This document shows positions 11,981 to 25,711 of a stretch of DNA of 64,000 nt, in pieces. The notes below the pieces were generated by a model. The model made no database searches. It saw only the letters and a list, made by a program, of their open reading frames with translations, and had not been told where the DNA came from. Source of the stretch: Secundilactobacillus odoratitofui DSM 19909 = JCM 15043. Its GTDB lineage: Bacteria; Bacillota; Bacilli; Lactobacillales; Lactobacillaceae. The stretch spans positions 62,502 through 126,501 of the forward strand of contig NZ_AZEE01000028.1 of assembly GCF_001434895.1 (NCBI RefSeq). The letters run 5' to 3'. Both the position numbers and the translations under genes were made by a program. Position 1 is the first letter of the stretch. Every line of letters starts with the position of its first letter.

Positions 11981-12106
11981 ACAGTGCCTATTAAATAATA
12001 GATGCAAGTCATTTTGGATATAGACTGGGTTCTTAGTTAGCTTATACAAAGCATTTTTAAATAAACTAAACAATAAAAATTGCACCTATTTTTCAATAGG
12101 CACTGT
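11981..12106. mobile_element. MITE-like element with 26-bp terminal inverted repeats
   Basis: The ends 11981-12006 and 12081-12106 are inverted copies matching at 23 of 26 positions; the outer 12 bases (ACAGTGCCTATT) match perfectly. The 126-bp total length and lack of coding capacity fit a miniature inverted-repeat element. Each end contains its own small palindrome (CTATT-N4-AATAG), which adds to the symmetry. I saw no clear target-site duplication, so mobility is inferred only from structure and the accessory context. Confidence 0.45.
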
Positions 12107-12177
12107 ATCAAAGTAAAAAAGAAGTTTCGACACTAATTGAGTAACATGCGATCATTTTCACGGTAACGAGAACGGAG

Positions 12178-12345
12178 ATTAGCGGTTTTTTTCGGTTGCA
12201 GTGACAAGTCCTTCTTAGCGCAGAGCGGTTAGAAGGACTGGACGTTTCTGAGACCCATGGGGTTGGGGCTCAGAAACGAGGCGGAAGCCACGCGTTTCAT
12301 GCGTGGCTGAAGACGGTCCCACAGCAACCGAAAAAGGCCGCTAGG
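12178..12345 (+). ncRNA. Structured repeat element, copy A (multi-stem RNA candidate)
   Basis: A long closing stem (12180-12199 with 12324-12343, 20 bp with two G-U pairs) encloses three hairpins: 12207-12215/12231-12239, 12244-12252/12269-12277 and 12287-12293/12301-12307. The joining sequences AGTGACA, GGAC, GAGGCGGAAG and GAAG-GGTCCCAC-GC recur in the same order in copy B at 23272-23433, while the stems differ in sequence but still pair. That pattern of compensatory change indicates a selected fold. The strand is not certain; the GGAAA loop in copy B favours plus. I do not recognise an Rfam family, and no T-tract follows. It lies about 180 bp upstream of pyruvate oxidase. Confidence 0.7.
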
Positions 12346-12430
12346 CGTAGTGGCAGTGGCCGAGAAAAGGATATGTAATCGATAACCTCATAAGTTGAAA
12401 ATGAGGTGTAACTTCACTGAGTCAAGTTAA

Positions 12431-12459
12431 TTGCTATTTCAACCCGAACTGACTATGAT
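12431..12459 (+). promoter_or_regulatory. Sigma-A promoter of pyruvate oxidase
   Basis: TTGCTA (12431-12436) and TATGAT (12454-12459) are separated by exactly 17 bp, 65 bp before the ATG. A short hairpin (GACGCTT/AAGCGTC) lies in the 5' leader. I saw no clear catabolite-responsive element. Confidence 0.75.
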
Positions 12460-12523
12460 AATGACGCTTTAATCAATAAGCGTCGTTGTTGCAGCAGTGA
12501 ATTAAAACTTGGAGGAGATAGTA

Positions 12524-14278
12524 ATGGCTGAAACAATTAACTCAGGTGTCGCAGTACTGAAGACGTTGGAAAGTTGGCACGTTAATCATATTTATGGCAT
12601 TCCGGGTGGAACCATCAATAATTTAATGTATGCGTTACACAAAGAACAAGAAAACATTCAGTACATTCATGTCCGCCACGAAGAAGTTGGCGCATTGGCT
12701 GCTGTCGCTGATACAAAGTTAACGGGGCATATTGGCGTGGCTTTTGGCTCAGCTGGACCTGGCGCAACCCATTTATTTCAAGGGGCCTATGATGCGATGG
12801 CCGATAAAGTACCCGTGTTATTTATCGTTGGCCAAAACCCTCAGGCAATGATGAATCAAGACTTCTTTCAAGAGTTCGATGAAGATCCGTGGTTTGATAA
12901 TCCGGGAGTTTATGCTCGGACAGTGACAACTGCTGAAAGTCTGCAACACGTGATTGACGAAGCTATTCGGCGGGCATTTGCCGAACACGGTCCAGCTTTT
13001 GTAACCATTCCGAATGATTTGGCCAATAAACCGATCCCAGCGGATGGTTACTATAGTGCCGCGGCTAACTTTGCACGGCCAACTTTGGCTGCTGGGTCGG
13101 ATGAACAAGTACAGCAGATTTTGGCACTTTTAAAAAACGCCAAGAAACCGCTGATTTATGTTGGTCAAGGTACGGTTGGCGCGGCAGAAGAAGTTATGCA
13201 GTTTGCCAAACAGTTCCAAGTGCCAGTGGTGACGACGGCGCTAGGTAAAGAGGTGATTCCATATGACTTCGAGTCGCTGCTGGGGTCAGCAGCGCGGGTA
13301 GCTTCGAAACCAGCAAACGAAGCGTTGAAGGAAACAGATTTTATGCTGTTTGTTGGATCAAACTATCCGTTTGCCGAAATCATGTTTAAACCAGACGTGA
13401 AATTCGCCCAAATCGATACGAACCCGGCGATGCTAGGAAAGCGGCACCGTACTGATGTTGCCATTTTGGGTGATGCCAAGGCAACTCTACAGAAATTAAT
13501 CGTGTTGGGTGACACGGCGGCCCCATCGCCATGGTATCAAGCCAATGTAGCCAACGTTGCCAATTGGCACCAGTATAATGACGATATGATGAATCGAACC
13601 GAGGGCCAGTTACGATTTGAACCAGCTTTTAAGGAAATCAATCGGATTGCGGCTGAAGATGCGATTTTCTCAATTGATGTGGGTGATGTGACGCAAAATG
13701 CCGTTCGACTGTTAAAAGTGAACGGTAAGCAGCCATGGATCACATCAGGGTTATTTGCCACCATGGGTGTTGGGTTACCAGGTTCGATTGCTGGGCAATT
13801 AAGTTTCCCGGGACGACAGGTCTTTAACCTCACTGGTGATGGGGCGGCAGCTATGGTGATGCAGGATCTCAGTACGCAAGTCACCTATAAATTGCCAGTC
13901 ATTAACGTGGTCTTTACGAACTTAGCCCTCGGTTTCATTGAAGACGAGCAGGAAGATGATGGTCAGGAGTGGTTTGGAATTAGCCTGCCGAAGACCGATT
14001 TTGCCAAAGTTGCTGAGGCGCAGGGGATGACCGGTATTACCGTTACAACGGTAGAAGAGATGAAACCGGCGTTTGACCGGGCACTGGAATTAACTCAGGC
14101 TGGCAAACCAGTGTTGATCGATGTCAGAATGTCTAATGAGCGACCGATTCCAGTTGAAAAGCTAGCACTGGATCCCGACCAATTTGACGCCGAAACTATC
14201 GCGGCCTTCAAGAAACGATACTACGCAGATAACTTGGCACCGTTGAGCCAGTATTTGAAGCAGTATGGTGTGTCGTAA
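12524..14278 (+). CDS. pox: Pyruvate oxidase (TPP/FAD-dependent, acetyl-phosphate forming)
   Basis: Pyruvate oxidase converts pyruvate, phosphate and oxygen to acetyl phosphate, CO2 and hydrogen peroxide. The 584-residue protein has the three-domain TPP-enzyme layout. The catalytic glutamate is in RHEEVGALAA (Glu53/54), a SAGPGATH loop is near 75, and the C-terminal thiamin-diphosphate motif starts at GDGAAAMVMQDLST and ends at the Asn of VVFTN. ATG 12524 follows GGAGGAG; an upstream in-frame ATG at 12509 overlaps that site and is less likely. Acetolactate synthase has a similar fold, but the RHEEVGALAA and C-terminal sequence favour the lactobacillar pyruvate oxidases. The next operon is a thiamin-salvage operon, so cofactor supply and use are adjacent. 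Confidence 0.9.
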   Translation: MAETINSGVAVLKTLESWHVNHIYGIPGGTINNLMYALHKEQENIQYIHVRHEEVGALAAVADTKLTGHIGVAFGSAGPGATHLFQGAYDAMADKVPVLFIVGQNPQAMMNQDFFQEFDEDPWFDNPGVYARTVTTAESLQHVIDEAIRRAFAEHGPAFVTIPNDLANKPIPADGYYSAAANFARPTLAAGSDEQVQQILALLKNAKKPLIYVGQGTVGAAEEVMQFAKQFQVPVVTTALGKEVIPYDFESLLGSAARVASKPANEALKETDFMLFVGSNYPFAEIMFKPDVKFAQIDTNPAMLGKRHRTDVAILGDAKATLQKLIVLGDTAAPSPWYQANVANVANWHQYNDDMMNRTEGQLRFEPAFKEINRIAAEDAIFSIDVGDVTQNAVRLLKVNGKQPWITSGLFATMGVGLPGSIAGQLSFPGRQVFNLTGDGAAAMVMQDLSTQVTYKLPVINVVFTNLALGFIEDEQEDDGQEWFGISLPKTDFAKVAEAQGMTGITVTTVEEMKPAFDRALELTQAGKPVLIDVRMSNERPIPVEKLALDPDQFDAETIAAFKKRYYADNLAPLSQYLKQYGVS

Positions 14279-14371
14279 AATTCGTTATAATAATTTGAAG
14301 TATTTTTCAAATTTGGTGATTGGAAGAAGAATGATTGCATTTCTCAATTAATTATGGCATGATTAGGCCAC

Positions 14372-14453
14372 AAGCTAGGGGTGCTCATTCGAGCTGAGAT
14401 GGCAGTCGCCAGACCCTTTGAACCTGAGAGTTAACACTCACGTAGGAAAGCTA
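14372..14453 (+). promoter_or_regulatory. TPP (thiamin pyrophosphate) riboswitch
   Basis: The conserved thi-element blocks appear in order: GGGGTGC, GCTGAGAT, ACCCTTTGAACCTGA, GTTAACAC and CGTAGGAAAGCT. A terminator follows at 14470-14502, so the mechanism is probably transcription attenuation: with TPP bound, the ylmB-ykoE operon is switched off. Confidence 0.97.
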
Positions 14454-14469
14454 TTGATCGTGTGAATCA

Positions 14470-14502
14470 GACTCTCGAAGCTTGCTTCGAGGGTCTTTTT
14501 TT
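14470..14502 (+). terminator. Riboswitch-controlled terminator
   Basis: The 11-bp stem GACTCTCGAAG/CTTCGAGGGTC, loop CTTG, is followed by seven T residues. It is the expression platform of the TPP riboswitch. Confidence 0.9.
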
Positions 14503-14552
14503 GTCTAACTTAGGTTCGTGGCTGAGTTTGTACCACGAAGGGACTTTGTAAT

Positions 14553-15827
14553 ATGGATAGTTCAAAAGCGTCATTGTTGGCAGCGGTAACGGCTCAACAA
14601 GACCACTTGGTGACAATTTTGTCACGATTGGTGGCCTTTGAAACAGTTTCACCACCCGCACGTAACACGATTGGTGTTCAACAGTACGTGGCCAATCAAC
14701 TCACCGAAGCTGGCGCCACGGTCAATCAGCAGCCGTTTTATGAACAAGACCGCTTATTATCGGCCGTCCTAAGGGGCAGTAATCATATGCACTATCAGAG
14801 TTTGATTTTAAACGGCCATGTGGACGTGGCGGCACTGACGGATGCGGATAAGTGGGAAACCGACCCGTTTACATTAACGCAAGAGGCTGATCAGCTGTTT
14901 GGTCGCGGTGTTAGTGATATGAAAGGGGCGATGGCCTGCTTTATTTACCTGGCCTACTTATTAAAGCAACAAGGGATAACGCTGCCAGGAGATTTGATTT
15001 TTCAGTCGGTGGTTGGTGAAGAAGCGGGTGAGGCCGGGACTAAAACACTGTTGAAGCAGGGTGAGACAGCTGATTTTGCAATCGTGGGCGATACCAGTAA
15101 TCTGACCTTTCAGGGGCAAGGTGGTGTGGTCACTGGCTGGATAACACTTCGTAGTCCGCATACCTATCATGACGGCAACCGGGTGAACATGTTGCGGGCT
15201 GGTGGTGGATTAAAGGCCGCAAGTATGGTTGAAAAAATGCCGGTGATCATTGAGGCCCTCCAAAAATTGGAACACTATTGGGCGGTGACAAAACAGTATC
15301 CCGGTTTTCCAGCGGGCACCGATACCATTAACCCTGCGTACATTGAGGGGGGCATTCACCCCGCTTTTGTTGCCAACGAATGTCGCCTCTGGATCACGGT
15401 TCATTTTTATCCAAATGAAACAGTGGCTCAGGTTACCAAAGAAATTGAAGCGCAAGTCTTGGCAGCAGCCAAGGCGGATCCATGGTTGAAAGATCAGTTA
15501 CCAACCTTTCAGTGGGGTGGCGATTCAATGCTGGTCGATAAGGGTGAGGTATTCCCTGCGCTGCAAATCGACGTTCAGTCGCCAGCGGTTCAATTACTTA
15601 GTCAGGCACACGAGCAGCAGTTAGGTCACAAACCAGACATTTCAATGTCAACCACGGTCACGGACGGCGGTTGGTTTGAGGCCTACAATATTCCAGCAGT
15701 CGTATATGGACCAGGTGAACTAGAACAGGCCCACAGTGACAACGAGATGGTGCAGTTATCGCAATTATTGACGTATACCAAAGTGTTGGCGGCATTTGTA
15801 ATTGATTGGTGCAATCAGGCCAAATAA
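14553..15827 (+). CDS. ylmB: M20 deacylase, probable formylaminopyrimidine deformylase (YlmB-like)
   Basis: This 424-residue protein is an ArgE/DapE-type M20 metallohydrolase. The zinc ligands and base are visible: His89 and Asp91 in NGHVDVA, Asp122 in GRGVSDMKGA, the Glu pair in VGEEAGEAG (156/157), and a C-terminal AHSDNE. The TPP riboswitch directly upstream points away from arginine or lysine synthesis. It points to the Bacillus YlmB role, deformylating formylaminopyrimidine, a thiamin breakdown product, for pyrimidine salvage. The length is close to YlmB. The co-transcribed ykoE is a thiamin-precursor transporter subunit. The ATG at 14553 has a modest AAGGGA site. The specific substrate is inferred from regulation and context. 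Confidence 0.78.
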   Translation: MDSSKASLLAAVTAQQDHLVTILSRLVAFETVSPPARNTIGVQQYVANQLTEAGATVNQQPFYEQDRLLSAVLRGSNHMHYQSLILNGHVDVAALTDADKWETDPFTLTQEADQLFGRGVSDMKGAMACFIYLAYLLKQQGITLPGDLIFQSVVGEEAGEAGTKTLLKQGETADFAIVGDTSNLTFQGQGGVVTGWITLRSPHTYHDGNRVNMLRAGGGLKAASMVEKMPVIIEALQKLEHYWAVTKQYPGFPAGTDTINPAYIEGGIHPAFVANECRLWITVHFYPNETVAQVTKEIEAQVLAAAKADPWLKDQLPTFQWGGDSMLVDKGEVFPALQIDVQSPAVQLLSQAHEQQLGHKPDISMSTTVTDGGWFEAYNIPAVVYGPGELEQAHSDNEMVQLSQLLTYTKVLAAFVIDWCNQAK

Positions 15828-15842
15828 CGGGAGGATCCAACT

Positions 15843-16400
15843 ATGAAAAAACATTTTCACCTGCAAGATATTATCTTAATTACTATGATTGCCTTAATTT
15901 TTGGGGCGATTTTTGTCGGTACAGATTACTTGTACAATGTATTATTTGTGGCGGTCGGGCCATTTGCAAATGAAATTTTGTTTGGTCTGTGGATCATGGC
16001 CGGACCACTGGCCATCTATCTTACCCGAATTCCTGGTGCGGCCATCGTCGGTGAAGTACTGGGTGCGGCGGCTGAAGTGATTTTTGGCGGTACCTTTGGC
16101 ATTGCAGCCCTCTTGTCTGGTATCGTGCAGGGGGTCGGCAGTGAGATTGGGTTTGCCGTTTGGCGCTACAAACAGTGGAATTGGTTGAGTTTACTGACAT
16201 CATCCGTGACAACCACCATCGTCGCCTTTACGTATGAGGTCTTCAAGCTGGGCTACATTCACTATTCGCTGGGAATGATCGTGGCCTTATTTACGGTACG
16301 GCTGATTTCCGTGATTTTCTTTGGCACCGTTTTGGTTCACAGTATCTTTGCACTGCTAGAGCGGGCGCATGCGCTTCGGCATTTGAAATCAGAAGAATAG
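15843..16400 (+). CDS. ykoE: ECF transporter S component, YkoE family (thiamin precursor)
   Basis: The 185-residue integral membrane protein has five or six hydrophobic segments and the small size of an ECF substrate-binding subunit. The sequence pattern (GPFANEILFGLW..., GEVLGAAAEVIFGGTFG, QGVGSE) matches the YkoE family, which takes up hydroxymethylpyrimidine or thiamin. It lies 15 bp after ylmB with a GGGAGGA site and shares the TPP riboswitch. No ykoD/ykoC-like ATPase and T-subunit genes follow, so it probably uses the ECF energy-coupling module shared by many S components in lactobacilli. The exact ligand is not visible. Confidence 0.85.
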   Translation: MKKHFHLQDIILITMIALIFGAIFVGTDYLYNVLFVAVGPFANEILFGLWIMAGPLAIYLTRIPGAAIVGEVLGAAAEVIFGGTFGIAALLSGIVQGVGSEIGFAVWRYKQWNWLSLLTSSVTTTIVAFTYEVFKLGYIHYSLGMIVALFTVRLISVIFFGTVLVHSIFALLERAHALRHLKSEE

Positions 16401-16502
16401 TTGTGATTTGATTAAACAATTGGCAGTGATGTGGTGTGGTGTGTTTATTTAACTCTATGACATCGTCGAACCGTGAAGAAAGTGAAATTTTTTGAGCAAA
16501 TT

Positions 16503-16565
16503 AAAAATACGAAGTCGAGACCCTTCACTGATACAGTGACTCAGGTTCTGACTTCGTATTTTTGT
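16503..16565. terminator. Bidirectional terminator
   Basis: AAAAATACGAAGTCGAGACC pairs with GGTTCTGACTTCGTATTTTT; a nested TCACTG/CAGTGA stem forms the tip. A/T tracts on both sides serve ykoE on plus and the acyltransferase gene on minus. Confidence 0.85.
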
Positions 16566-16629
16566 GAGTTGATCCAATGATTGCGCCTGTTTTGAAAGAC
16601 GAAATCATACAAATCTAGCTGGTTATTTT

Positions 16630-17838
16630 CTATTCACGAACTCTGAGTGAGGCTGCGTGACCGATTCCTTTCGCATGTCGTGCCTTTAGCGGACGCTTCT
16701 GTGGTCGCCCAATCAAGAAGCCAAATGGATAAACTTTATAGCAGAACCAAGCAATCAAGAACGAGTAGGAGAGTACAAACAGGCTACCAAGTGGGATGGC
16801 AACGACTAGCGCCCAGTCACCAAGTTGTAAGTGATCCAAGATAAGTCGTAGGGTGATTAAACCAATGATTTGGTTCAGGTAAATACCGAAGTTGACCTTA
16901 GCACTGCGTTGGATGATGCCGTCCAACCAACTAGGCATGCCATTTTGCCGCCAAGCTGCGTATTGTTTGCCAATCCAGAAAACGACCATAATCATGATGA
17001 CGTCATAGATAAACAGGTAAGGTTGTTGCGTATCATCAGATGAGCTTTGGCCGAGGTGTAAAACAGCTTCGTCCCAGAATCGGAAATAGACGGTGGTACC
17101 AAGTCCCATCACAACGGCGGTAATCGCCAGCGGTTTAATGTGCGCATTGATCCAATCATAGACTTCATTATAGTGAATGGCAGTATAGCCACCCGCAATG
17201 AAGTAGAATTGGTAAACAAACACGTTAATGCCAAAGGTTTTGAACCAGTACGGCCAACTTGTCAGGTCCATTTGTTCCAGTTTGTATTTGATCACAAACA
17301 TCATGGCTAACTGAATCACGAAACTTACGGTGAGAAGCGTGCCGTGATGGCCTTCCAAACGCTTGAAGAGCCAAACGAGTCCAGGAAATAGTAAGTAGAG
17401 TTGCATGATGATAATCATAAAGTATAGGTAGAAGTGACTGCCGTGGACGACATAGTTTAAGTACGATAGACTGAACTTCGAGAACTGAAAAGTATCGTTG
17501 TTTGCCCACATGATGACAACCATCATCAGAAAGTTCCAGATTAAGTAGGGTGGAATGCTGCCTTTGAAACGTTTCTTCAAAAATGCGCCCCAGTGGGGTT
17601 CCTTGTTGTAGTAGTTCAACATCAGCACTAAACCACTCATGAACAAAAAGCCCATTCGCGTGTAGTGCGGAATCATGCGGATGCTGTCCACTAAGTAGTA
17701 GGGTAAACCTGAAGTAGAACTCATATGATCCGTAAATACATTGACACTGTGATTGATTAAGACACCAAAAATGAAGAAGAGTCGCATGAAGTCTACTTCA
17801 TAGAGGTGCACTTTATGTTTTGGCGTCGTTTGAGCCAC
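16630..17838 (-). CDS. Acyltransferase family 3 membrane protein
   Basis: This 402-residue protein has about ten membrane segments. Its N-terminus (YEVDFMRLFFIFGVLINHS) holds the arginine and histidine positions typical of acyltransferase 3 proteins, which transfer acetyl or other acyl groups to cell-surface glycans. It lacks the extracellular SGNH domain of OatA, so it is not a complete OatA. The start is GTG, spaced from AAGGAG. It is monocistronic, closed by the bidirectional terminator. The substrate (peptidoglycan, teichoic acid or exopolysaccharide) cannot be told. Confidence 0.82.
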   Translation of the reverse strand: MAQTTPKHKVHLYEVDFMRLFFIFGVLINHSVNVFTDHMSSTSGLPYYLVDSIRMIPHYTRMGFLFMSGLVLMLNYYNKEPHWGAFLKKRFKGSIPPYLIWNFLMMVVIMWANNDTFQFSKFSLSYLNYVVHGSHFYLYFMIIIMQLYLLFPGLVWLFKRLEGHHGTLLTVSFVIQLAMMFVIKYKLEQMDLTSWPYWFKTFGINVFVYQFYFIAGGYTAIHYNEVYDWINAHIKPLAITAVVMGLGTTVYFRFWDEAVLHLGQSSSDDTQQPYLFIYDVIMIMVVFWIGKQYAAWRQNGMPSWLDGIIQRSAKVNFGIYLNQIIGLITLRLILDHLQLGDWALVVAIPLGSLFVLSYSFLIAWFCYKVYPFGFLIGRPQKRPLKARHAKGIGHAASLRVRE

Positions 17839-18184
17839 GTGCTCATCTCCTTGAAAAAGTCATGAGCTTAGGTTAAGCCGGTTAACTTAAAGTGGGCTTA
17901 AAGCTGGAAATTGATAGTTGACCGACTGTTAAATATACTGAAACCTTCAAATCGGTAGGAATTAGATCGATTGTATTGGATCAACATTAATATGTATAAT
18001 ACAAGTAATTGATGTAACAGCGTTTATTAGTGATATCTTTGAGCTACTAATTCTCCCTAAAATGCCAGAAGTGTATACAATAAATTAATCTTCCTATAAA
18101 TATTTTATATTGTGCAGGGCAATTAACTATGATAAAGTCAACCGTAAGTAATGTAGGCGATTTCAATCCGAGGGGGATTTCATC
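17839..18184. other. Intergenic region between divergent genes; promoter candidate at 17971-18000
   Basis: TTGTAT (17971-17976) and TATAAT (17995-18000) are 18 bp apart on the plus strand and would give a leader of about 180 nt before the secreted protein at 18185. No riboswitch or repeat was recognised. Confidence 0.45.
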
Positions 18185-18844
18185 ATGAATAAAACAACTG
18201 TAACGACCGTTGTTGCACTTGCACTTGGCCTAGGGGGTGGCTATCTTGCCACGCAACAGCCAACAGTTGCCCAGGCATCAGCGAAGTTTGCTAAAAAGGA
18301 TCTTCAGAATCCATCTGGCTATTATTACACCAATAAGGGCCGTTATGCCTTTCACTGGCAAAACAAGAAGTCCGGTCATAAAACTTACCATTATCTCGTG
18401 ATGTCTGATTTTAAAGCGGGTATCGTGTATACCGGCAGCATTTCATACCACCAGATCAGTGCTAATCGCCGCACGTTTACGACCACGTTTCGACTGTTGG
18501 ACAATGGTGGAAAGCTGACAAGTACGAAATATAAGTTCGGGTTATATAAGTTAAGCAACTCGAAGTACCGGGTTAAACTCTATAACAGTGGTTCTCGGCG
18601 CTTGGTCAGCAATCATGGGACGACCTACGCGATTACCAGAACAACTAAGAATCCGTTCACGCGGATGTTTAATGCTTATACTAAGAAGTCACTGAAAGCT
18701 GATATCAACAAGGTGCTGACCGAACGTTACAACGATGGTTATTCAAAGGTTGATCCGAAGAGTTCGGACGGTCAAAAAGCCTTGAATACGGGTGTGCACG
18801 CTGGTTATGTTTATGTGAAGGATGCGTTTAGTTTGAAGGGATAA
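18185..18844 (+). CDS. Secreted protein of unknown function
   Basis: The 219-residue protein has a signal peptide (MNKTTVTTVVALALGLGGGY..., predicted cut after AQASA near residue 33). The mature part is rich in Lys, Tyr, Ser and Thr (YYYTNKGRYAFHWQNKKSGHKTYH). No LPxTG or lipobox is present, so it is probably released or loosely bound to the wall by charge. Such Lys/Tyr-rich proteins are common in lactobacilli and mostly uncharacterised. The ATG follows GAGGGGG. It is a single gene closed by a terminator at 18896-18938. Confidence 0.75.
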   Translation: MNKTTVTTVVALALGLGGGYLATQQPTVAQASAKFAKKDLQNPSGYYYTNKGRYAFHWQNKKSGHKTYHYLVMSDFKAGIVYTGSISYHQISANRRTFTTTFRLLDNGGKLTSTKYKFGLYKLSNSKYRVKLYNSGSRRLVSNHGTTYAITRTTKNPFTRMFNAYTKKSLKADINKVLTERYNDGYSKVDPKSSDGQKALNTGVHAGYVYVKDAFSLKG

Positions 18845-18895
18845 TGTTTAACTTTGTAGGTTTCTTATCCTGCCTAAATAATTATTTATAACAAG

Positions 18896-18938
18896 TAGAG
18901 GCGACACCCAAGTGGAAACCTGGGTGTCGCCTCTATTT
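18896..18938 (+). terminator. Strong hairpin, probable terminator
   Basis: The 15-bp perfect stem TAGAGGCGACACCCA/TGGGTGTCGCCTCTA is followed by only a short T run (TATTTG), so termination may be partial. Confidence 0.65.
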
Positions 18939-19221
18939 GCGTATTGGTTGATTTCTTATTTCTGATAAATTGATATATTGTAACAAGCATAAATACGTAA
19001 CATTGGCGAAAAATTTGCAAATATCTGAAAAAATCTATCAAGTTTATGAGCTATTTACACTCGGATGTATCAGTCAGTTATCAATCATACTTCCGAATCT
19101 GCTTTCTCTTCACGCAAAATATTATGCAGATCACGACATTTCATTATGCGCCCTTTCCCTAATAGCATTCCCGCCCACACCCCGGTAAACTAAAAGAAAA
19201 CCATGAAACGGGGGACACATT
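18939..19221. other. AT-rich intergenic region
   Basis: A 72-codon open frame at 18970-19188 begins at TTG with no ribosome binding site and is probably spurious. Promoter elements for the gene at 19222 could not be chosen with confidence. Confidence 0.4.
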
Positions 19222-20187
19222 TTGGGACAGTTTAACTTTGACTTGAACGCTTCGCGACTGGACGCAAGTGGTCACTATGATTTTCAAAACGTGTTTGAAT
19301 TTCCAGACTTTATTGAAATGCGGCCGCGGTTGCGTGACGCCGTGCGAACGGTGGCGCAAGAAGCCTTTGATCAGCCCGTGTTGCCGGTGAAAGTAGAACG
19401 GCTGACAACTTCACTGGAAGAACAGTTAGAACGTGAGACTCGTAAGTATGCGCGCCAGTTAGGCGTTTATCCCAACCAGAAGGGTGAACGCAATGAACTG
19501 GTGCGGTTATTTACCCACATTCTGCAGATTATTAGTCGAACGGATGATATCGATGAAGAATTGGAAGATATGATATATGCGGTCAATCAGACTCGATTAA
19601 GTCTGATTGGGCTACCTGAGCTGACGGGTGAAGGTGAACTCTACAACGCGGATCAAGACCAAGAACTTATCCCTGGCACCTTTTATTATGAGGTGACTAA
19701 GCAGCTTGTTAAGCCGTATTTGATTAATTCGAAGGGTGAGATGGTGCCTGAAAATGTCACAGAAGAAGGGCGTCACTTAGTAGTTAAGATGACCACGTAC
19801 GCATACCGTGATTGGGATGCTTACTTGATGCACGAATACGACGAGCAACACATTATCAAAAACGAAAAGGGCCTTCAAGACGAGACCTATTTCAATAAAT
19901 TAGAGGAAATTGAACTCAAGTACGCTGACCACGCTTACGCAGAAGTGTTAGCTGACACTTATCAAGATTTCAGCAAGCTGTTGGTACCGGACTTTGTGCC
20001 AGCCTTTGAAATCATGTCGACGGACTTGCGGCCACTGATTGCCAAACAACCAGGCTTACGCATTCGATTGACCGCCAAAATTGCTGATCGATTTAAACTT
20101 GACGCTGACGGTTTCGAACACGTCATGGATCAGCCACTAAACGAAATCAAAACCAAATACAACTTTTACCGTCAAAACTTTGCTTAG
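19222..20187 (+). CDS. Conserved-looking cytoplasmic protein of unknown function
   Basis: I do not recognise this 321-residue soluble, acidic protein. No membrane segment, signal peptide or known motif is visible. The frame opens at TTG (19222) after a GGGGGAC site; the next in-frame Met is about 32 residues inside, so TTG is likely. It is followed 12 bp later by another unknown gene, with which it forms an operon ending at a shared terminator (20650-20694). Codon use resembles the surrounding chromosome, so it is not obviously acquired. Confidence 0.65.
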   Translation: MGQFNFDLNASRLDASGHYDFQNVFEFPDFIEMRPRLRDAVRTVAQEAFDQPVLPVKVERLTTSLEEQLERETRKYARQLGVYPNQKGERNELVRLFTHILQIISRTDDIDEELEDMIYAVNQTRLSLIGLPELTGEGELYNADQDQELIPGTFYYEVTKQLVKPYLINSKGEMVPENVTEEGRHLVVKMTTYAYRDWDAYLMHEYDEQHIIKNEKGLQDETYFNKLEEIELKYADHAYAEVLADTYQDFSKLLVPDFVPAFEIMSTDLRPLIAKQPGLRIRLTAKIADRFKLDADGFEHVMDQPLNEIKTKYNFYRQNFA

Positions 20188-20199
20188 GATGTGACGAAG

Positions 20200-20637
20200 A
20201 TGATGAACCAAGAACCCTTAACAGGGCCAGAAGCCAAAATGGGTTTACCGGAATTTGAAAACACACTATTTGTGCTGGATGTGGCACCGACCCAAGCGAA
20301 TATTGAAGACTTTGCCATGCAAGGTAACTTGTATCCAGAACCTTTGGATGATGTGGCATGGGCGCTACCTGGGTATTTATCCGACGATTACAATTTATTT
20401 CTGATATTTGCCCCGAACGTTTTGGAGAACTGGACAATTACATGTGCACAGGTCGAAATTGTGAACGGTAACGAAATCACCCATATGAGTAACGTGGTGC
20501 CAACTGGAACTGGTTTGAATGCGATTGCGTCTATCAGTAAGAGTGGGTCAATTGAATTATTAGCATACTTTAAAACGCTGCAAGCGAACGGTTTAGGTCA
20601 TTTTGACGAAGAACTTTGGAAACAAGTTTCACATTAA
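20200..20637 (+). CDS. Unknown protein, second gene of a two-gene operon
   Basis: This acidic protein of about 145 residues has no recognised motif. The best start is ATG 20200 (10 bases after AGGA at 20186-20189). A GTG at 20191 would be only one base from that site, and ATG 20203 is also possible. The upstream gene ends at 20187. It is probably co-transcribed with it, and both may act together. Confidence 0.6.
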   Translation: MMNQEPLTGPEAKMGLPEFENTLFVLDVAPTQANIEDFAMQGNLYPEPLDDVAWALPGYLSDDYNLFLIFAPNVLENWTITCAQVEIVNGNEITHMSNVVPTGTGLNAIASISKSGSIELLAYFKTLQANGLGHFDEELWKQVSH

Positions 20638-20649
20638 ATCGTTGATGTG

Positions 20650-20694
20650 AATGAAAAACGCCTCGGTATGACTACTCACACCGGGGCGTTCATT
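20650..20694. terminator. Bidirectional terminator
   Basis: AATGAAAAACGCCTCGGT pairs with ACCGGGGCGTTCATT across a 14-nt loop. It separates the plus-strand unknown operon from the minus-strand binding protein. Confidence 0.7.
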
Positions 20695-20704
20695 GCTTAT
20701 TCAT

Positions 20705-21766
20705 TTACTTAGTAGCTGTTGAGCCTGATAAAATCAGGTTAGCTTGATGGCGACTCAACTGATAGTTGTAATATTTCTGGTAGAAGGCTTGCGTCTTTTG
20801 GGTCATGTGGAGCTGCTTGAACTGGGCAGGATGTAGTTTCTGCGCAGCCCAAAGCACTTGAAGGGCTTCTTCTGCACTGTAACGATCCCACGGGAAGGTG
20901 CCTTGTGGGTTGCCGTATACGTGACCAGTTTTGACCGCAGTCAGTTTGCTGAGGACGGGGTCTTTTTTCAAGGCTTTTAGGGCATTGGCGGTGGTTGTAC
21001 TACCGACAATGATGACGTCGGGGTTAGACTTGGCCAATTTTTCAGTTGTGACCGAAATCATGTTACCTTTTTGAGACAGGGCGTTTTGACCACCAGCTGC
21101 CTTGATCCATTCGTCCACAATCGTGTTTTGGCCATCCACCACGTTTAAGTTGGTGCTGTTGACGATGTGGAGCACCTTTGGCTTGTTGGTGACACCTTTC
21201 AGCTGAGTTTTAACGTAATTCAAGTTGCTGGTTAAGTCCTTTTGGTAATTCTTAGCAACTTTAGGCGCGTTACCGCCTAGTACGTTTGCGGTTAGGTTTA
21301 CGGAACGACGTAAGCCCGCAAAATCCTGATACATGGCGTTCACGGTCGGTAATTTAGCGTTTCGGGCCTGTTTAATTTGGCCAGGGTCAGATGAAATCAC
21401 CACGTCAGGTTTCGTTTTGAGTAGCGCTTCAATCTGCATGTCCTCTCCGGAAAACGGTGCTTTAACTTTTGAAATGCCAGGGAAAATGGCGTTGATCCAT
21501 GGCTCTGTTTTAATCATTTGTGTGGTTGCCACTAATTTCTTTTGACCGCCGAGTAGCATCACGACTTGATTATTTGCGTGCCAAAGGTCAGCAACTCGTG
21601 AGACTTGGGTGGGAAGCTTAACTTTGGTACCACTCATATCAGTCACCGTTCGGGTGGTCGTTGAGCTGTTACTGCTAGACTTGCTAGTATTCCCACAGCC
21701 GACCACAATGGTAGCCAATGCTAGTATACTTAAGATACCAGCGACAAAACGAACTTGATGTTTCAT
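20705..21766 (-). CDS. ABC transporter substrate-binding lipoprotein, FecB/BtuF type
   Basis: This 353-residue extracytoplasmic binding protein belongs to the family that captures iron chelates, corrinoids, heme or molybdate for FecCD-type importers. A lipoprotein signal is visible (hydrophobic 8-22, lipobox VVGC with Cys24). The two-lobe fold is indicated by LKTKPDVVISSD near 115, the long helix region near 150-180 (FAGLRRSVNLTANVLGG) and NPDVIIVGS near 250. ATG 21766 follows GGAGGAG. The only matching permease and ATPase genes in the window are 10 kb away (31719-33517), so it probably works with them. The ligand is not visible; the molybdate alternative is discussed in the findings. Confidence 0.85.
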   Translation of the reverse strand: MKHQVRFVAGILSILALATIVVGCGNTSKSSSNSSTTTRTVTDMSGTKVKLPTQVSRVADLWHANNQVVMLLGGQKKLVATTQMIKTEPWINAIFPGISKVKAPFSGEDMQIEALLKTKPDVVISSDPGQIKQARNAKLPTVNAMYQDFAGLRRSVNLTANVLGGNAPKVAKNYQKDLTSNLNYVKTQLKGVTNKPKVLHIVNSTNLNVVDGQNTIVDEWIKAAGGQNALSQKGNMISVTTEKLAKSNPDVIIVGSTTTANALKALKKDPVLSKLTAVKTGHVYGNPQGTFPWDRYSAEEALQVLWAAQKLHPAQFKQLHMTQKTQAFYQKYYNYQLSRHQANLILSGSTATK

Positions 21767-22128
21767 ATAACAAACTCCTCCCAGAATAAATGCAGTGGTT
21801 CAAATAATTGCTGTTCAACGATTTTATAGTGTTCCAACATGAAGAGAATGAAACCGCTTATAAAATAATTATATCGTATTTTTGGTATATTTTCACTTAA
21901 TTGACAGGAATATTTAAGCATAAAATTGACTGAAAACGCCGTTATATCAGCATTAATTGCAGCTGTTCGTCCGGCATCATCAACTTGCACCTTAACTCGT
22001 TTCAACTGTAATTTATACGGCCAGAGCAACACGAATTGCAACGGATGTGGTAACATAGTGAAAGCAGTTATTTTACGTTATAAACCCGTGGGGAGTGCGG
22101 GTAAATTCAAGGTAGAGGAGTGCCAAAG
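21767..22128. other. Divergent intergenic region
   Basis: It holds the promoters for the binding protein (minus) and the polyprenyl synthase (plus), but I could not pick convincing -35/-10 pairs. Two overlapping open frames here (21763-22056 minus, 21926-22201 plus) have no ribosome binding sites. No NreC-like dyad was seen. Confidence 0.35.
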
Positions 22129-23106
22129 ATGGTTCACAAACTATGGCGCCAGTTTCCACGAGTTCAGACACAACTACAACAGTTGCAACCTTATCTCGTA
22201 GATGTGGTGACATTACCAAACCAACCGATACATAAACGAATACTCGCGTTATTACAATCTGGGGGCAAGCTCTTACGGCCCGGTCTGTTTTACTTGTTTA
22301 CTGAGTTTGGTGAACAACATGATGAAGACGCTTTGCGTGCAGGGGCTGCATCCTTGGAACTACTTCACGTTGCTACACTGATTCACGACGACGTGATTGA
22401 CCGTTCGCCACTACGTCGTGGTGTGACGACGATTCACACGCTGTATGGCTCACGAAACGCTGTGTACGCGGGCGATTATTTGTTCACGGTTTATTTTAAT
22501 GAAGTCATGAAAGCCACCCATGATATGGCCGAATTGCAGCTGAATATCAACAGCATGCGCGACATTTTGATTGGTGAGTTGGAACAGATGACGCTTAATT
22601 ACAAGCGTGACGTGACTGAAGATGAGTATTTCCAAGAGATTAGTGGTAAAACTGCCGAGTTATTCTGGCTTAGTTGTCGACAAGGTGCATCGTTGAGTCA
22701 TAGCTCACAAGCTGTGGTTGACTTGGCTGGTCAAATCGGCATGACGATCGGTCAGGCATATCAGATCTTGGATGATATCTTAGATTATGATGGACAGTCC
22801 AAAGCCACCAAGAAGCCAGTTTTAGAAGACCTTAAGTCGGGCGTCTATTCGTTACCGTTAATTCTGGCAATGAAGGGGGCTGGTCAGGTCTTTAAGCCTT
22901 ATCTGGCCAAAAAAGACCAGATGACTAGTGACGACATGGTGCAGGTTCAACGACTGGTGACGCAATATGATGGTGTGGGTCAGGCAAAAGCTAAAGCGGC
23001 TGAATTGACACAACAAGCTTTAGCGTTGATTGATCAATTACCAGACCAGCCCGTCAAACAGGATTTGGCAACCTTAACCTCATGGTTGCTTGGGCGGCAA
23101 CAGTAA
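22129..23106 (+). CDS. All-trans polyprenyl (heptaprenyl) diphosphate synthase
   Basis: This 325-residue trans-isoprenyl synthase makes the long side chain of menaquinone. Both aspartate-rich motifs are present: first DDVIDRSPLRRG (near residue 85) and second DDILDY (near 218), plus GGKLLRPGL near 45. ATG 22129 lies 8 bases after GAGGAG; a GTG at 22120 overlaps the site. Product length (hepta versus other) cannot be read from sequence. A quinone is required as electron donor to NarI, so this gene is a likely support function for nitrate respiration. It is monocistronic with a terminator at 23126-23169. Confidence 0.87.
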   Translation: MVHKLWRQFPRVQTQLQQLQPYLVDVVTLPNQPIHKRILALLQSGGKLLRPGLFYLFTEFGEQHDEDALRAGAASLELLHVATLIHDDVIDRSPLRRGVTTIHTLYGSRNAVYAGDYLFTVYFNEVMKATHDMAELQLNINSMRDILIGELEQMTLNYKRDVTEDEYFQEISGKTAELFWLSCRQGASLSHSSQAVVDLAGQIGMTIGQAYQILDDILDYDGQSKATKKPVLEDLKSGVYSLPLILAMKGAGQVFKPYLAKKDQMTSDDMVQVQRLVTQYDGVGQAKAKAAELTQQALALIDQLPDQPVKQDLATLTSWLLGRQQ

Positions 23107-23125
23107 TGATTTTGAAATATGACAG

Positions 23126-23169
23126 AAGTACTTAGAATTCCGGTAATGGAATTTTGAGTGCTTTTTTTA
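23126..23169 (+). terminator. Rho-independent terminator
   Basis: AAGTACTTAGAATTCC pairs with GGAATTTTGAGTGCTT (several G-U pairs), followed by a run of T residues, 20 bp after the polyprenyl synthase. Confidence 0.8.
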
Positions 23170-23271
23170 TTGGGTGTCACTGATACTGTGACCAGCGGTT
23201 TACCTACAGTTCTCGACACGTTAGTTCGATCGGTATTTAAACGTATAACGGTCAAGTGACGTTAGTGTAGA

Positions 23272-23433
23272 CAATCAGGCCCGGTCCGCAGCAGTGACAA
23301 ATGGCTGTTGGTGCTTTAGTATTTACAACCATTGGACGGTCATGAGACTCGGGTTGTGAGGCTCATGACCGAAGCGTAAGACACGGGAAACGTGGCCGAA
23401 GCTGGTCCCACGGCAGTGGACCGGGCCTGATTA
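23272..23433 (+). ncRNA. Structured repeat element, copy B (multi-stem RNA candidate)
   Basis: The closing stem (23273-23289 with 23416-23432) encloses hairpins at 23300-23304/23329-23333, 23338-23346/23362-23370 and a CACG-GGAAA-CGTG stem-loop near 23382-23395. The single-stranded blocks AGTGACA, GGAC, GAGAC...GGTT...GCTCA, GAAGCGTAAG and GAAG-TGGTCCCAC-GC match copy A at 12178-12345 in order and spacing, while stem sequences differ. It lies between the polyprenyl synthase and the feo operon in a 427-bp gap without genes. Function is unknown. Confidence 0.7.
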
Positions 23434-23492
23434 TCGAAACGAAAGCGGTGCGTAAAAGCGCATCAAACTAATCTAAAAACTCGCGATGCCCA

Positions 23493-23527
23493 ATAAAAAA
23501 ACCACCAAGCAATTAAACTTGGTGGTC
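23493..23527 (-). terminator. Rho-independent terminator of the feo operon
   Basis: ACCACCAAG/CTTGGTGGT with a T-run on the minus strand (seven A residues on plus at 23494-23500), seven bases beyond the small FeoB-associated gene. Confidence 0.85.
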
Positions 23528-23713: not shown

Positions 23714-25711
23714 TCACATGAACAAAGAACCAATCTGAAAAATCAAAAAGGCTAAACTATAACTGATAAATAGGCTAGAGACCACCGAATAAGTGGCCCA
23801 CTTACCAGAACCAGTCTCTGACTTAATTGTCCCAATCGTAGCAAAACATGGGATGTAAAGCAAGATAAAGACTAATAATGCATAGGCAGATAACATGTTG
23901 AAACTGCCACCCAATGCAGCGATTAACGCGGTTTGGTTGCTGGTATGGAATAACACCATCATGCTGGAACTGATGACTTCCTTAGCGAGGACGCCAGTCA
24001 ACAACGCGCTGATTGGCTGCCAAGTTGTAATGCCAATTGGCTTGAAGGCGGGCAGTAACAGTTGACCTAAGTTAGCCGCAAAACTTTGACTAATATTGGT
24101 GGTGTAACCGTGCAAACCAAAGTTTGATAACAGCCAAATTAAGACGGTACCGGCAAAAATAATTGTGCCGGCTTTTTTGACGAAGCCCTTGCCTTTATCC
24201 CACGTCCCGTGCCAGATAATGTCAGGACGTGGCATGTGGTACTGCGGTAGTTACACGATGAAAACTGAGTTCTCTTTAACGTGAAATAAAACGTGGTAAA
24301 ACTTAGCCATTAACAGACCAACCGTGATCCCCAAGAAATAAATTGATAACACAATCACGGCTTGATGACGTGGAAATAGGGCGGCTACGAACAGGCTGTA
24401 AATTGGCAGTCGTGCAGAGCAACTCATGAAAGGTGAAATCAGGGTGGTGATCAGTCGCTCTTTGGGTTGTTCGATCGTACGTGCGGCCATGATACCGGTG
24501 ACGTTGCAACCAAACCCAATAATCAGTGGAATGAACGCCTTACCGTTCAGGCCAATCAGTTCCATGATTCGGTCAGTCACGAGAGCTGCCCGGGCCATGT
24601 AGCCGGAATCTTCAAGAATCGAAATACAGGCGAATAACACGAAAATCTGGGGCATAAACACTAGCACACCGCCAACCCCGGCGATTAAGCCATTGACGAC
24701 TAATGACCGTAACATCGGCAACGCGCCAACTTGAGTAAGAAAATGATTTGCCCAGGTGGATATCGGGCCAGATAACAGTGCATCAAGCTGGTTAGACAGT
24801 GGCGTGCCAATCCAGTCAAATGATAGTTTAAACATTAAAAAGAAGACACCAATAAAGACGGGTAAACCGAGTAACGGGTGGGTGACCACTTTATCGATTT
24901 TTGACGTTATCGTAACGTGCTTCGTGGATTCGAGTGTCTCAGTTGCTGTGGTAAGCGTTGATTCAATAAAGGCCAAGCGGGTCTCAAAAATCGCATCCTC
25001 AAACTTCTGAGCATCATAATAAGCACGTTGGGAAAGTAACGGCTTTAAATCATGTGCTTTAGCGTATTTTCGAACCACTTTATTGCAATTAATGTACTGG
25101 ATTGATAACCAATGAGCAAATTGTGGCTCAATTTTATAATCATTTACTAATGAATTAGTTGCCTGTCGGATGGCTTGATTAACCATCATCGGATAGTCTA
25201 GTTTCAGCGGTGAATTTTCATGGATCTGAGCTTGATCTTTTACTAATTCAGATTTTAATTGTTCCAACCCCTCTTTGCTGCGGGCATTAGTGGTACGAAT
25301 CGGGCAGCCTAGAGCGTTTGCGAGCGTTTCCAAATTATAGTAATGGCCAGTTCGCTTTAAGTCATCGATCATGTTAAGTGTGATGATGACTGGCAAGCCC
25401 AGTTCCAATACTTCGATGGATAACAGTAGGTTACGCTTGAGCTGACTGGCGTTGGTGACGTTTAAAATCAGGTCAGGCTTGCTCCTGAGCAGGTAATTAG
25501 TCACCACGGATTCGTCCTTAGTGATTGGGTTGAGCGAATAAATGCCTGGCAAGTCTACAACCATAGTGTCACTGTGTTTAATTTGACCGACCTTTTTTTC
25601 TACCGTTACACCGGTCCAGTTACCGACGTAGGCGTACTTATCAGTCAATTCATTAAACAGGGTGGTTTTACCGGTATTCGGATTGCCTAATAATGCGACG
25701 GTTGTCATCAT
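23714..25711 (-). pseudogene. feoB: Ferrous iron transporter FeoB interrupted by an in-frame stop
   Basis: FeoB is the GTPase-coupled Fe(II) importer. The N-terminal part (24251-25711, 486 residues) has G1 GNPNTGKT (residues 9-16), G3 DLPG, G4 NMID and the first Gate domain with several membrane helices. A TAA at 24251-24253 then ends it. The same frame continues without shift for the rest of the protein (to 23714), rejoining as FIV-stop-LPQYHMPRPD, where a Glu is expected in FeoB (E-L-P). A single G-to-T change of GAA to TAA explains it. Restored length would be about 665 residues, normal for FeoB. Either the gene is inactive, or the stop is read through, or the base is a sequencing error. 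Confidence 0.85.

Follow-up and report, generated by a model that had tools for sequence, protein, structure and literature searches.

A folded, dispersed repeat of Secundilactobacillus odoratitofui as a probable arm of non-autonomous mobile units in Lactobacillales

The stretch analysed here (the window) comprises 64,000 nucleotides of contig NZ_AZEE01000028.1 of Secundilactobacillus odoratitofui DSM 19909 = JCM 15043. An original prediction, made from the sequence alone, had described two copies of a structured RNA-like element in it, and both are real: we found copy A at 12178-12345 and copy B at 23272-23433, on the plus strand, with predicted folds as described and minimum free energies of -94.9 and -83.5 kcal/mol, respectively. 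On its sense strand such an arm is predicted to form a closed domain of three hairpins (H1, H2 and H3). In copy A the closing stem pairs 12179-12199 with 12324-12344 and the hairpins lie at 12207-12239 (H1), 12244-12277 (H2) and 12286-12308 (H3); a further helix, P3, joins GGAC (12240-12243) to GTCC (12316-12319), and H2 contains an A-G mismatch (GAGAC/GGCTC) common to the family. In copy B the closing stem pairs 23273-23289 with 23416-23432, H1 spans 23300-23333 and H2 spans 23338-23370. The ordered sequence blocks reported as shared are present in both copies. GGTT, taken for one of the single-stranded blocks, lies within the variable H2 loop in both and is not a junction block. The closing stem of copy B has the 17 bp given for it, whereas that of copy A has 21 rather than 20.

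Similarity between copies, as seen by blastn, extends beyond the closing stem of copy A, to about 12163-12360. Over this interval copy A is an arm of T1 type (one of two main kinds distinguished by their ends), with the 5' motif GTAACGAGAACGGAG and the 3' motif CGTAGTGGCAGTGGCC; it is single, and a partner arm was not found. Copy B (23272-23433) is likewise a single arm, typed as T1 by script, with diverged end motifs. R1, a covariance model built from 30 copies of the same genome, had only two matches in the window at E <= 10, the cores of copy A (12191-12331, 133.8 bits) and copy B (23284-23420, 117.7 bits); both copies trained R1, so these scores are not independent.

Copy A lies upstream of a same-strand gene with three thiamine pyrophosphate (TPP)-enzyme domains; its placement before that gene stands, while the name pyruvate oxidase was the earlier reader's own. 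Copy B had been placed before feo and lies instead where a polyprenyl-synthetase gene (plus strand) and FeoB-type open reading frames (ORFs; minus strand) converge, between their 3' ends. The FeoB-like sequence is split over adjacent minus-strand ORFs at 23714-24235 and 24251-25711, with FeoB_N and Gate domains together and a second Gate domain separate. A TPP riboswitch (14367-14465, plus strand) lies directly 3' of the TPP-enzyme gene and upstream of ORFs of 424 and 185 codons. An imperfect 36-nt inverted repeat (11981-12016 / 12071-12106, spacing 54 nt) is found upstream of copy A, and a 17-nt inverted repeat (23158-23174 / 23489-23505, spacing 314 nt) surrounds copy B.

The genome to which the window belongs (G000, 2.75 Mb; below, L-numbers denote fetched loci and C-numbers contigs of G000) holds far more than two copies. 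With copy A as query, blastn gave 32 matches in G000 and none in 30 relatives. R1 gave 114 in G000 (150 of 668 candidates scored), which bears out the expectation of several copies per genome. On the fetched stretches R1 returned 157 rows at E <= 10, of which we retained the 115 with at least 51 bits; the 42 rows dropped, all at or below 36.6 bits, were mostly antisense shadows and fragments, and real weak copies may sit among the unscored candidates. One extra copy, of 52 bits, was later found in G000.

The 115 copies form 73 units, namely 42 head-to-head pairs and 31 singles. In G000 all 42 pairs of neighbours closer than 1 kb stand head to head, minus then plus, with a gap of 116-377 bp; with duplicates removed, so do 10 of 14 such pairs in other sampled genomes and, among those on named contigs, 45 of 53. 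Each arm is about 165-200 nt long and carries several hairpins, and the two related arms of a pair flank an AT-rich middle. A script typed 51 arms as T1, 59 as T2 and 5 as unclear; among the pairs, 33 combine T1 with T2, four T2 with T2 and one T1 with T1, and four include an unclear arm. Within the best 45 of 2744 rows of the comparison, paired units align end to end at 75.8-82.8% identity, their borders lying some 30 nt beyond the cores, and one solo arm matches one arm of a paired unit at 92.8%. The units are short and non-coding, with many dispersed copies and sharp borders, as expected of a miniature inverted-repeat transposable element (MITE).

Some G000 arms of 55-62 bits (L096, L100, L154, L156 and L157), paired with an arm typed as T2 or unclear, may represent a third arm type, most of them having ends like CCGTAGTGCGGACGG / GGGAGCCGAAGGCG. 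An autonomous form with a gene between the arms was sought in the 21 minus-plus gaps longer than 380 bp: gaps of up to 740 bp had no ORF of 80 codons, and those of 766 and 843 bp had ORFs of 166 and 99 codons. The ORFs of still longer gaps do not resemble transposases, judged by their first residues and not by a family search.

The fold changes in sequence while keeping its pairs. An alignment of 129 sequences (127 distinct) drawn from several genera has 94.7% paired cells versus 70.3% in shuffles, and changes occur on both sides in 49 of 50 pairs. The covariation score is 0.582 versus 0.171 in shuffles (0 of 500 reach it) and at most 0.069 in slid controls; this alignment was fitted to the structure, which favours the pairing and covariation numbers. 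A MAFFT alignment of the G000 copies, which was not structure-fitted, gave 50 pairs with RNAalifold, 30 of them with a double change. The selected fold with compensatory stems put forward in the original prediction thus survived these controls, which we used in place of R-scape. Across the 115 copies in G000, 209 of 5601 stem cells (3.7%) are not standard pairs, and the fold has therefore been kept after insertion. Sense-strand cells include 219 G-U and 57 A-C combinations (101:24 in T1, 111:28 in T2 and 7:5 in the five unclear arms), so that one strand is selected to fold, namely the sense strand of each arm; the T1 and T2 arms of one unit fold on opposite strands. Across the family, H2 retains its A-G mismatch, and the letters of loops and junctions are likewise retained.

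Seven loci of a second family (probably Streptococcus, from gene content) have a copy in common in a purD-/purE-like intergenic gap, with H1 altered in matched pairs at a few places. For three of these loci the script counted 11, 1 and 7 double pairs, which are upper estimates because the model alignment shifts H1, alongside 29, 13 and 7 non-standard cells. Selection on the arm fold is very well supported, and every one of the scattered copies seems to have some role.

The fold matches no family of Rfam 15; the original prediction had not been able to match the block order to a riboswitch, T-box, 6S, tmRNA or RNase P. At the gathering thresholds of Rfam 15, the window gave only the TPP riboswitch and tRNA, with nothing at copies A and B, and 25 fetched loci gave no match. 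Lowering the threshold to E 10 on both strands gave nothing at copy A and one irrelevant other-strand match at copy B. T-box, 6S, HEARO, GOLLD, ROOL and group II introns are all members of Rfam 15. The arms resemble the structured RNAs of that collection in their complex, conserved, RNA-like fold and differ in matching no family.

A check for further copies in related genomes came out positive: of 14 other genomes from the same genus, 9 had R1 matches. R2, a wider model built on 129 sequences, matched 46 of 395 sampled Lactobacillales genomes (the own genome included) in 14 of 80 genera, and R1 matched 17 of the 395; among 398 genomes sampled from the phylum, G000 alone matched. Searches over more than 40 genomes used stricter filters and scored eight candidates per genome, so absences in these large samples are soft. 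Strong matches occur in at least three Lactobacillales families (f1, f4 and f5), and the named carriers are Lactobacillaceae: among the matches listed are Companilactobacillus huachuanensis, C. nantensis, C. kedongensis, C. hulinensis, C. mishanensis and C. keshanensis, as well as S. kimchicus and S. yichangensis. The copies of G011 and G001, two genomes of the same genus as G000, are identical to those of S. kimchicus and S. yichangensis, respectively, 30-nt flanks included. With up to 150 candidates scored per genome, R1 counted 114 copies in G000 and 63 in G010, and R2 counted 88 in G362, 49 in G317, 36 in G148, 23 in G232 and 9 in G237.

Searches of plasmids and phages by blastn with copy A and with a G317 unit had no match; the single pattern match on viral contigs (L280) had neither an R1 nor an R2 match; and pattern matches in other phyla (L177, L206) had no R1 match and were taken as chance. 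Three R1 matches of 72 nt (L079, L080 and L093, in G312 and G347) are absent from the R2 list and perhaps belong to a shorter, different relative; L079 has a GCTTTAGC hairpin within its closing stem.

The clearest view of whole units came from genome G317, where 18 copies share a 14-base start and have near-identical arms in differing surroundings, the product of a recent burst. Complete units are 501-528 bp long, and derivatives lacking most of one arm are 404 and 413 bp. Seven aligned two-ended units consist of terminal inverted repeats (TIRs), an antisense left arm, a hairpin-bearing middle and a right arm. Allowing up to three mismatches, G317 has 13 and 15 occurrences of the inverted 22-mer and 0 and 0 of a reversed-pattern control; the TIRs are perfect in L410 and agree at 21 of 22 positions in L408. 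Most of the left arm is gone from L408 and L422, a loss that would account for single arms. Several units are bordered by direct repeats of about 7 bp (AATTGAG at L410, AATTTCT at L422), and L412 lies, by eye, within the loop of a short hairpin. These dispersed units of about 500 bp with TIRs and direct repeats favour the mobile element that the original prediction had offered as an alternative.

Mean identity among the seven units is 92.7% for the right arm, 90.0% for the left TIR, 85.8% for the left arm and 81.0% for the middle; without one chimaeric unit it is 97.1% for the right arm and 80.7% for the middle. In that unit, L434, the closing stem is shared but the right-arm core within it is unlike the others, as though an exchange of cores had taken place. 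An ISL3 transposase (PF01610) was considered as the mover and rejected: its copies in G317 differ in their ends, and no PF01610 match occurs in G000.

Loci shared by C. nantensis and C. huachuanensis differ in the presence of a unit or arm (L186/L240, L199/L176, L176/L199 and L202/L173), and at L186/L240 the arm begins a few bases past the T-run of a terminator. The strongly divergent arms at the shared locus L202/L173 may be separate insertions. We discarded three of seven scripted candidates for filled and empty sites (L198, L224 and L239), which resemble alignments of one element to another.

Units sit between genes. According to a simple ORF caller, 42 of the 73 G000 units lie between tandem, 28 between convergent and 3 between divergent gene pairs; ORFs of about 92-134 codons overlap 17 of the 73, which we treated as chance. 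Arms facing gene 3' ends have a median distance to the stop codon of 113 nt (T1, 22 arms) or 118 nt (T2, 50 arms), and for arms facing gene starts the medians are 207 and 208 nt. Paired inverted modules outside genes and near gene ends are also the mark of bacterial interspersed mosaic elements (BIMEs) and repetitive extragenic palindromic (REP) sequences. A strict script found a hairpin followed by a T-run in 18 of 115 arm flanks, 14 of them 49-82 nt from the core, versus 3 of 115 in the control and 6 of 115 for terminators pointing the opposite way; these counts give weak support to terminator proximity.

The arms of G000 are also sorted by replication direction. With GC-skew signs of contigs taken from the fetched stretches, the sense strand runs in the leading-strand direction in 46 of 51 T1 arms and opposite to it in 47 of 59 T2 arms (Fisher 3.5e-14, the arms of a pair not being independent; binomial for T1 alone 2.3e-9). 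The rule holds at L104, L106 and L138, where all called ORFs run opposite. The skew of contig C5 switches at about 350-400 kb, the probable terminus. Between 86 and 680 kb of C5, 594 kb spanning the switch, R1 had no match at E <= 0.01, with 21.4 loci expected from 74 loci elsewhere on partly scanned contigs (Poisson 5.2e-10); 100 kb scanned of C1 had no R1 match. Within 300 kb of the inferred terminus of G317 there are 4 of 49 copies versus 12.1 expected (P 0.003). The orientation bias is absent on named contigs, mostly Companilactobacillus (counts 47, 55 / 13, 14; p 1.0), where arm typing is crude and 51 of 180 arms are untyped, and it is likewise missing from the recent burst in G317, where a hand count gave 11 of 18.

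We conclude that the copies are probably arms of non-autonomous, MITE- or BIME-like mobile units of Lactobacillales whose fold has been kept. Behind this stand the dispersal of the copies, the unit borders, the head-to-head architecture, and TIRs with direct repeats in one genome; the fold covaries in a strand-specific way, and the intergenic positions include few divergent gene pairs. The mobile nature of the units is well supported. A complete unit consists of a TIR, a minus-strand arm, an AT-rich middle, a plus-strand arm and a second TIR; it lies between genes, often near an intrinsic terminator, and carries no protein gene, and its arms fold independently, each on its own sense strand. 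After insertion the TIRs, the middle and often one whole arm would decay, in an order that we infer, and the remaining arms would keep their fold through matched changes. A DDE transposase acting in trans may have moved the units. The fold would do its work in read-through transcripts, as RNA, and not at the replication fork, as single-stranded DNA; its role would lie in processing or stability, or in serving as a termination structure in place of the interrupted terminator region. Action as RNA is quite possible, if tentative; action as single-stranded DNA is somewhat unlikely, and a service to chromosome architecture is improbable.

Several observations weigh against this account. A shared TIR is not recognisable in G000 itself, so the mobile reading there rests on shared borders and on relatives. 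At up to three mismatches, no TIR pair in G317 encloses a gene, and a transposase search, made for ISL3 (PF01610) in four genomes, found none with these ends. Some G317 units (L408, L421) have imperfect direct repeats or none, and across the seven aligned units only the right arm is better conserved than the TIR (90.0%), the left arm (85.8%) not being so. The filled and empty sites could also be deletions. Upstream of the 115 arms, sigma70-like promoters number 5 versus a shuffled mean of 3.6 at up to two mismatches, and 15 versus 19.2 at up to three. Arm direction follows replication even against local genes, which read-through RNA does not predict.

That last point would suit a fold acting in single-stranded DNA, where the template strand exposed at the fork would present it as a signal for mobility or replication; so would the 594 kb around the skew switch without a match. 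The lack of bias on named contigs and in the G317 burst, and the folding of T1 and T2 on opposite strands, speak against such a signal, which we consider rather unlikely. The same gap, the empty 100 kb of C1 and the thinner copies near the G317 terminus would also be expected if the units were chromosome-organising sites kept from the terminus, and their distribution would then be comparable to that of nucleoid-occlusion binding sites. Yet in G362, a genome in a single contig, the matches listed are spread over many parts of the chromosome, insertion bias or gene dosage could produce a gradient, and the density elsewhere comes from partly scanned contigs; we think these sites a poor prospect.

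Could the arms instead be genuine small RNA genes, divergent pairs transcribed outward from the middle and amplified for a function in trans? Strand-specific selection on both arms, each in its own sense, the closed multi-helix fold with conserved junction letters, and the few compensatory H1 changes at the shared purD-/purE-like gap would all fit. However, promoters are not enriched, the unit in G317 is bounded by TIRs, and one genome holds more than 70 near-redundant units, which makes this option unlikely; we rejected free-standing divergent genes with sigma70 promoters for that lack of enrichment, and a free-standing RNA gene of about 160 nt is not supported as such, the arm being half of a unit of about 500 bp. 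It is very unlikely that the stems have been kept perfect by copying (hairpin template switching or conversion between copies) and not by selection. The likeness of the G317 right arms relative to the middle (chimaeric unit excluded) and the different core of L434 could be read that way, but the H2 mismatch and the loop and junction letters persist, and symmetric correction does not give a strand-specific excess of G-U over A-C.

Small repeats of bacteria are usually read as decaying parasites. Here more than 100 copies in one genome have an elaborate fold kept by paired changes, and together they form a natural alignment of unusual size from which the function of such repeats could be worked out. 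A doubtful but wider reading of these mobile units is that the family has become chromosome furniture: arms under strand-specific structural selection after mobility, sorted by replication direction and kept from the terminus, would then serve as a nucleic-acid signal coupled to replication or to the chromosome, beyond being passive repeats. If the replication orientation and the terminus gap hold elsewhere, they would connect chromosome biology with an RNA-like fold.

We did not find the family described in the searched literature, mostly freely accessible, including the available text of PMC3049150, PMC10969869, PMC2267715, PMC2229807 and PMC3733652. In Streptococcus pneumoniae, BOX, RUP and SPRITE are described as folded, MITE-like small dispersed repeats thought likely to affect co-transcribed genes; BOX and RUP have TIRs, BOX is made of boxA, boxB and boxC modules, and the folds of BOX and RUP include the mutually paired TIRs (PMC3049150, as far as available). 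The word 'compensatory' is absent from that text. Compared by these partial descriptions only, the three resemble the present units as folded, MITE-like dispersed repeats in a Lactobacillales species, whereas the arms described here, unlike BOX and RUP, are two separately closed three-hairpin domains placed head to head.

Among enterococcal repeats, EFAR is named as a MITE (PMC3733652), and Efa-1 of Enterococcus faecalis is given as 163 bp with 65 copies and a pair of adjacent stem-loops (PMC2267715), both in the accessible text. They are alike in being Lactobacillales repeats in intergenic positions, and are set apart by descriptions only, as the three-way-junction arm and the T1/T2 pairing do not appear in those available. 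EFAR inserts into stem-loops and consists of two independent folded parts, two further points of likeness; its fold is an L-shaped double hairpin. The EFAR paper is the likeliest place in which to look for a relative. REP sequences are palindromes of 20-40 bp with REP-associated transposases (PMC2817692, PMC8266576 and PMC3733652, in part). The arms differ from such 20-40 bp hairpin modules in their length of 165-200 nt and their junctions; by the same partial descriptions, the units share with REP sequences and BIMEs a high copy number, an extragenic position, regularly spaced alternating modules, and solo as well as paired forms. The closest known kinds are MITEs and BIMEs, as represented by BOX, RUP, EFAR and REP.

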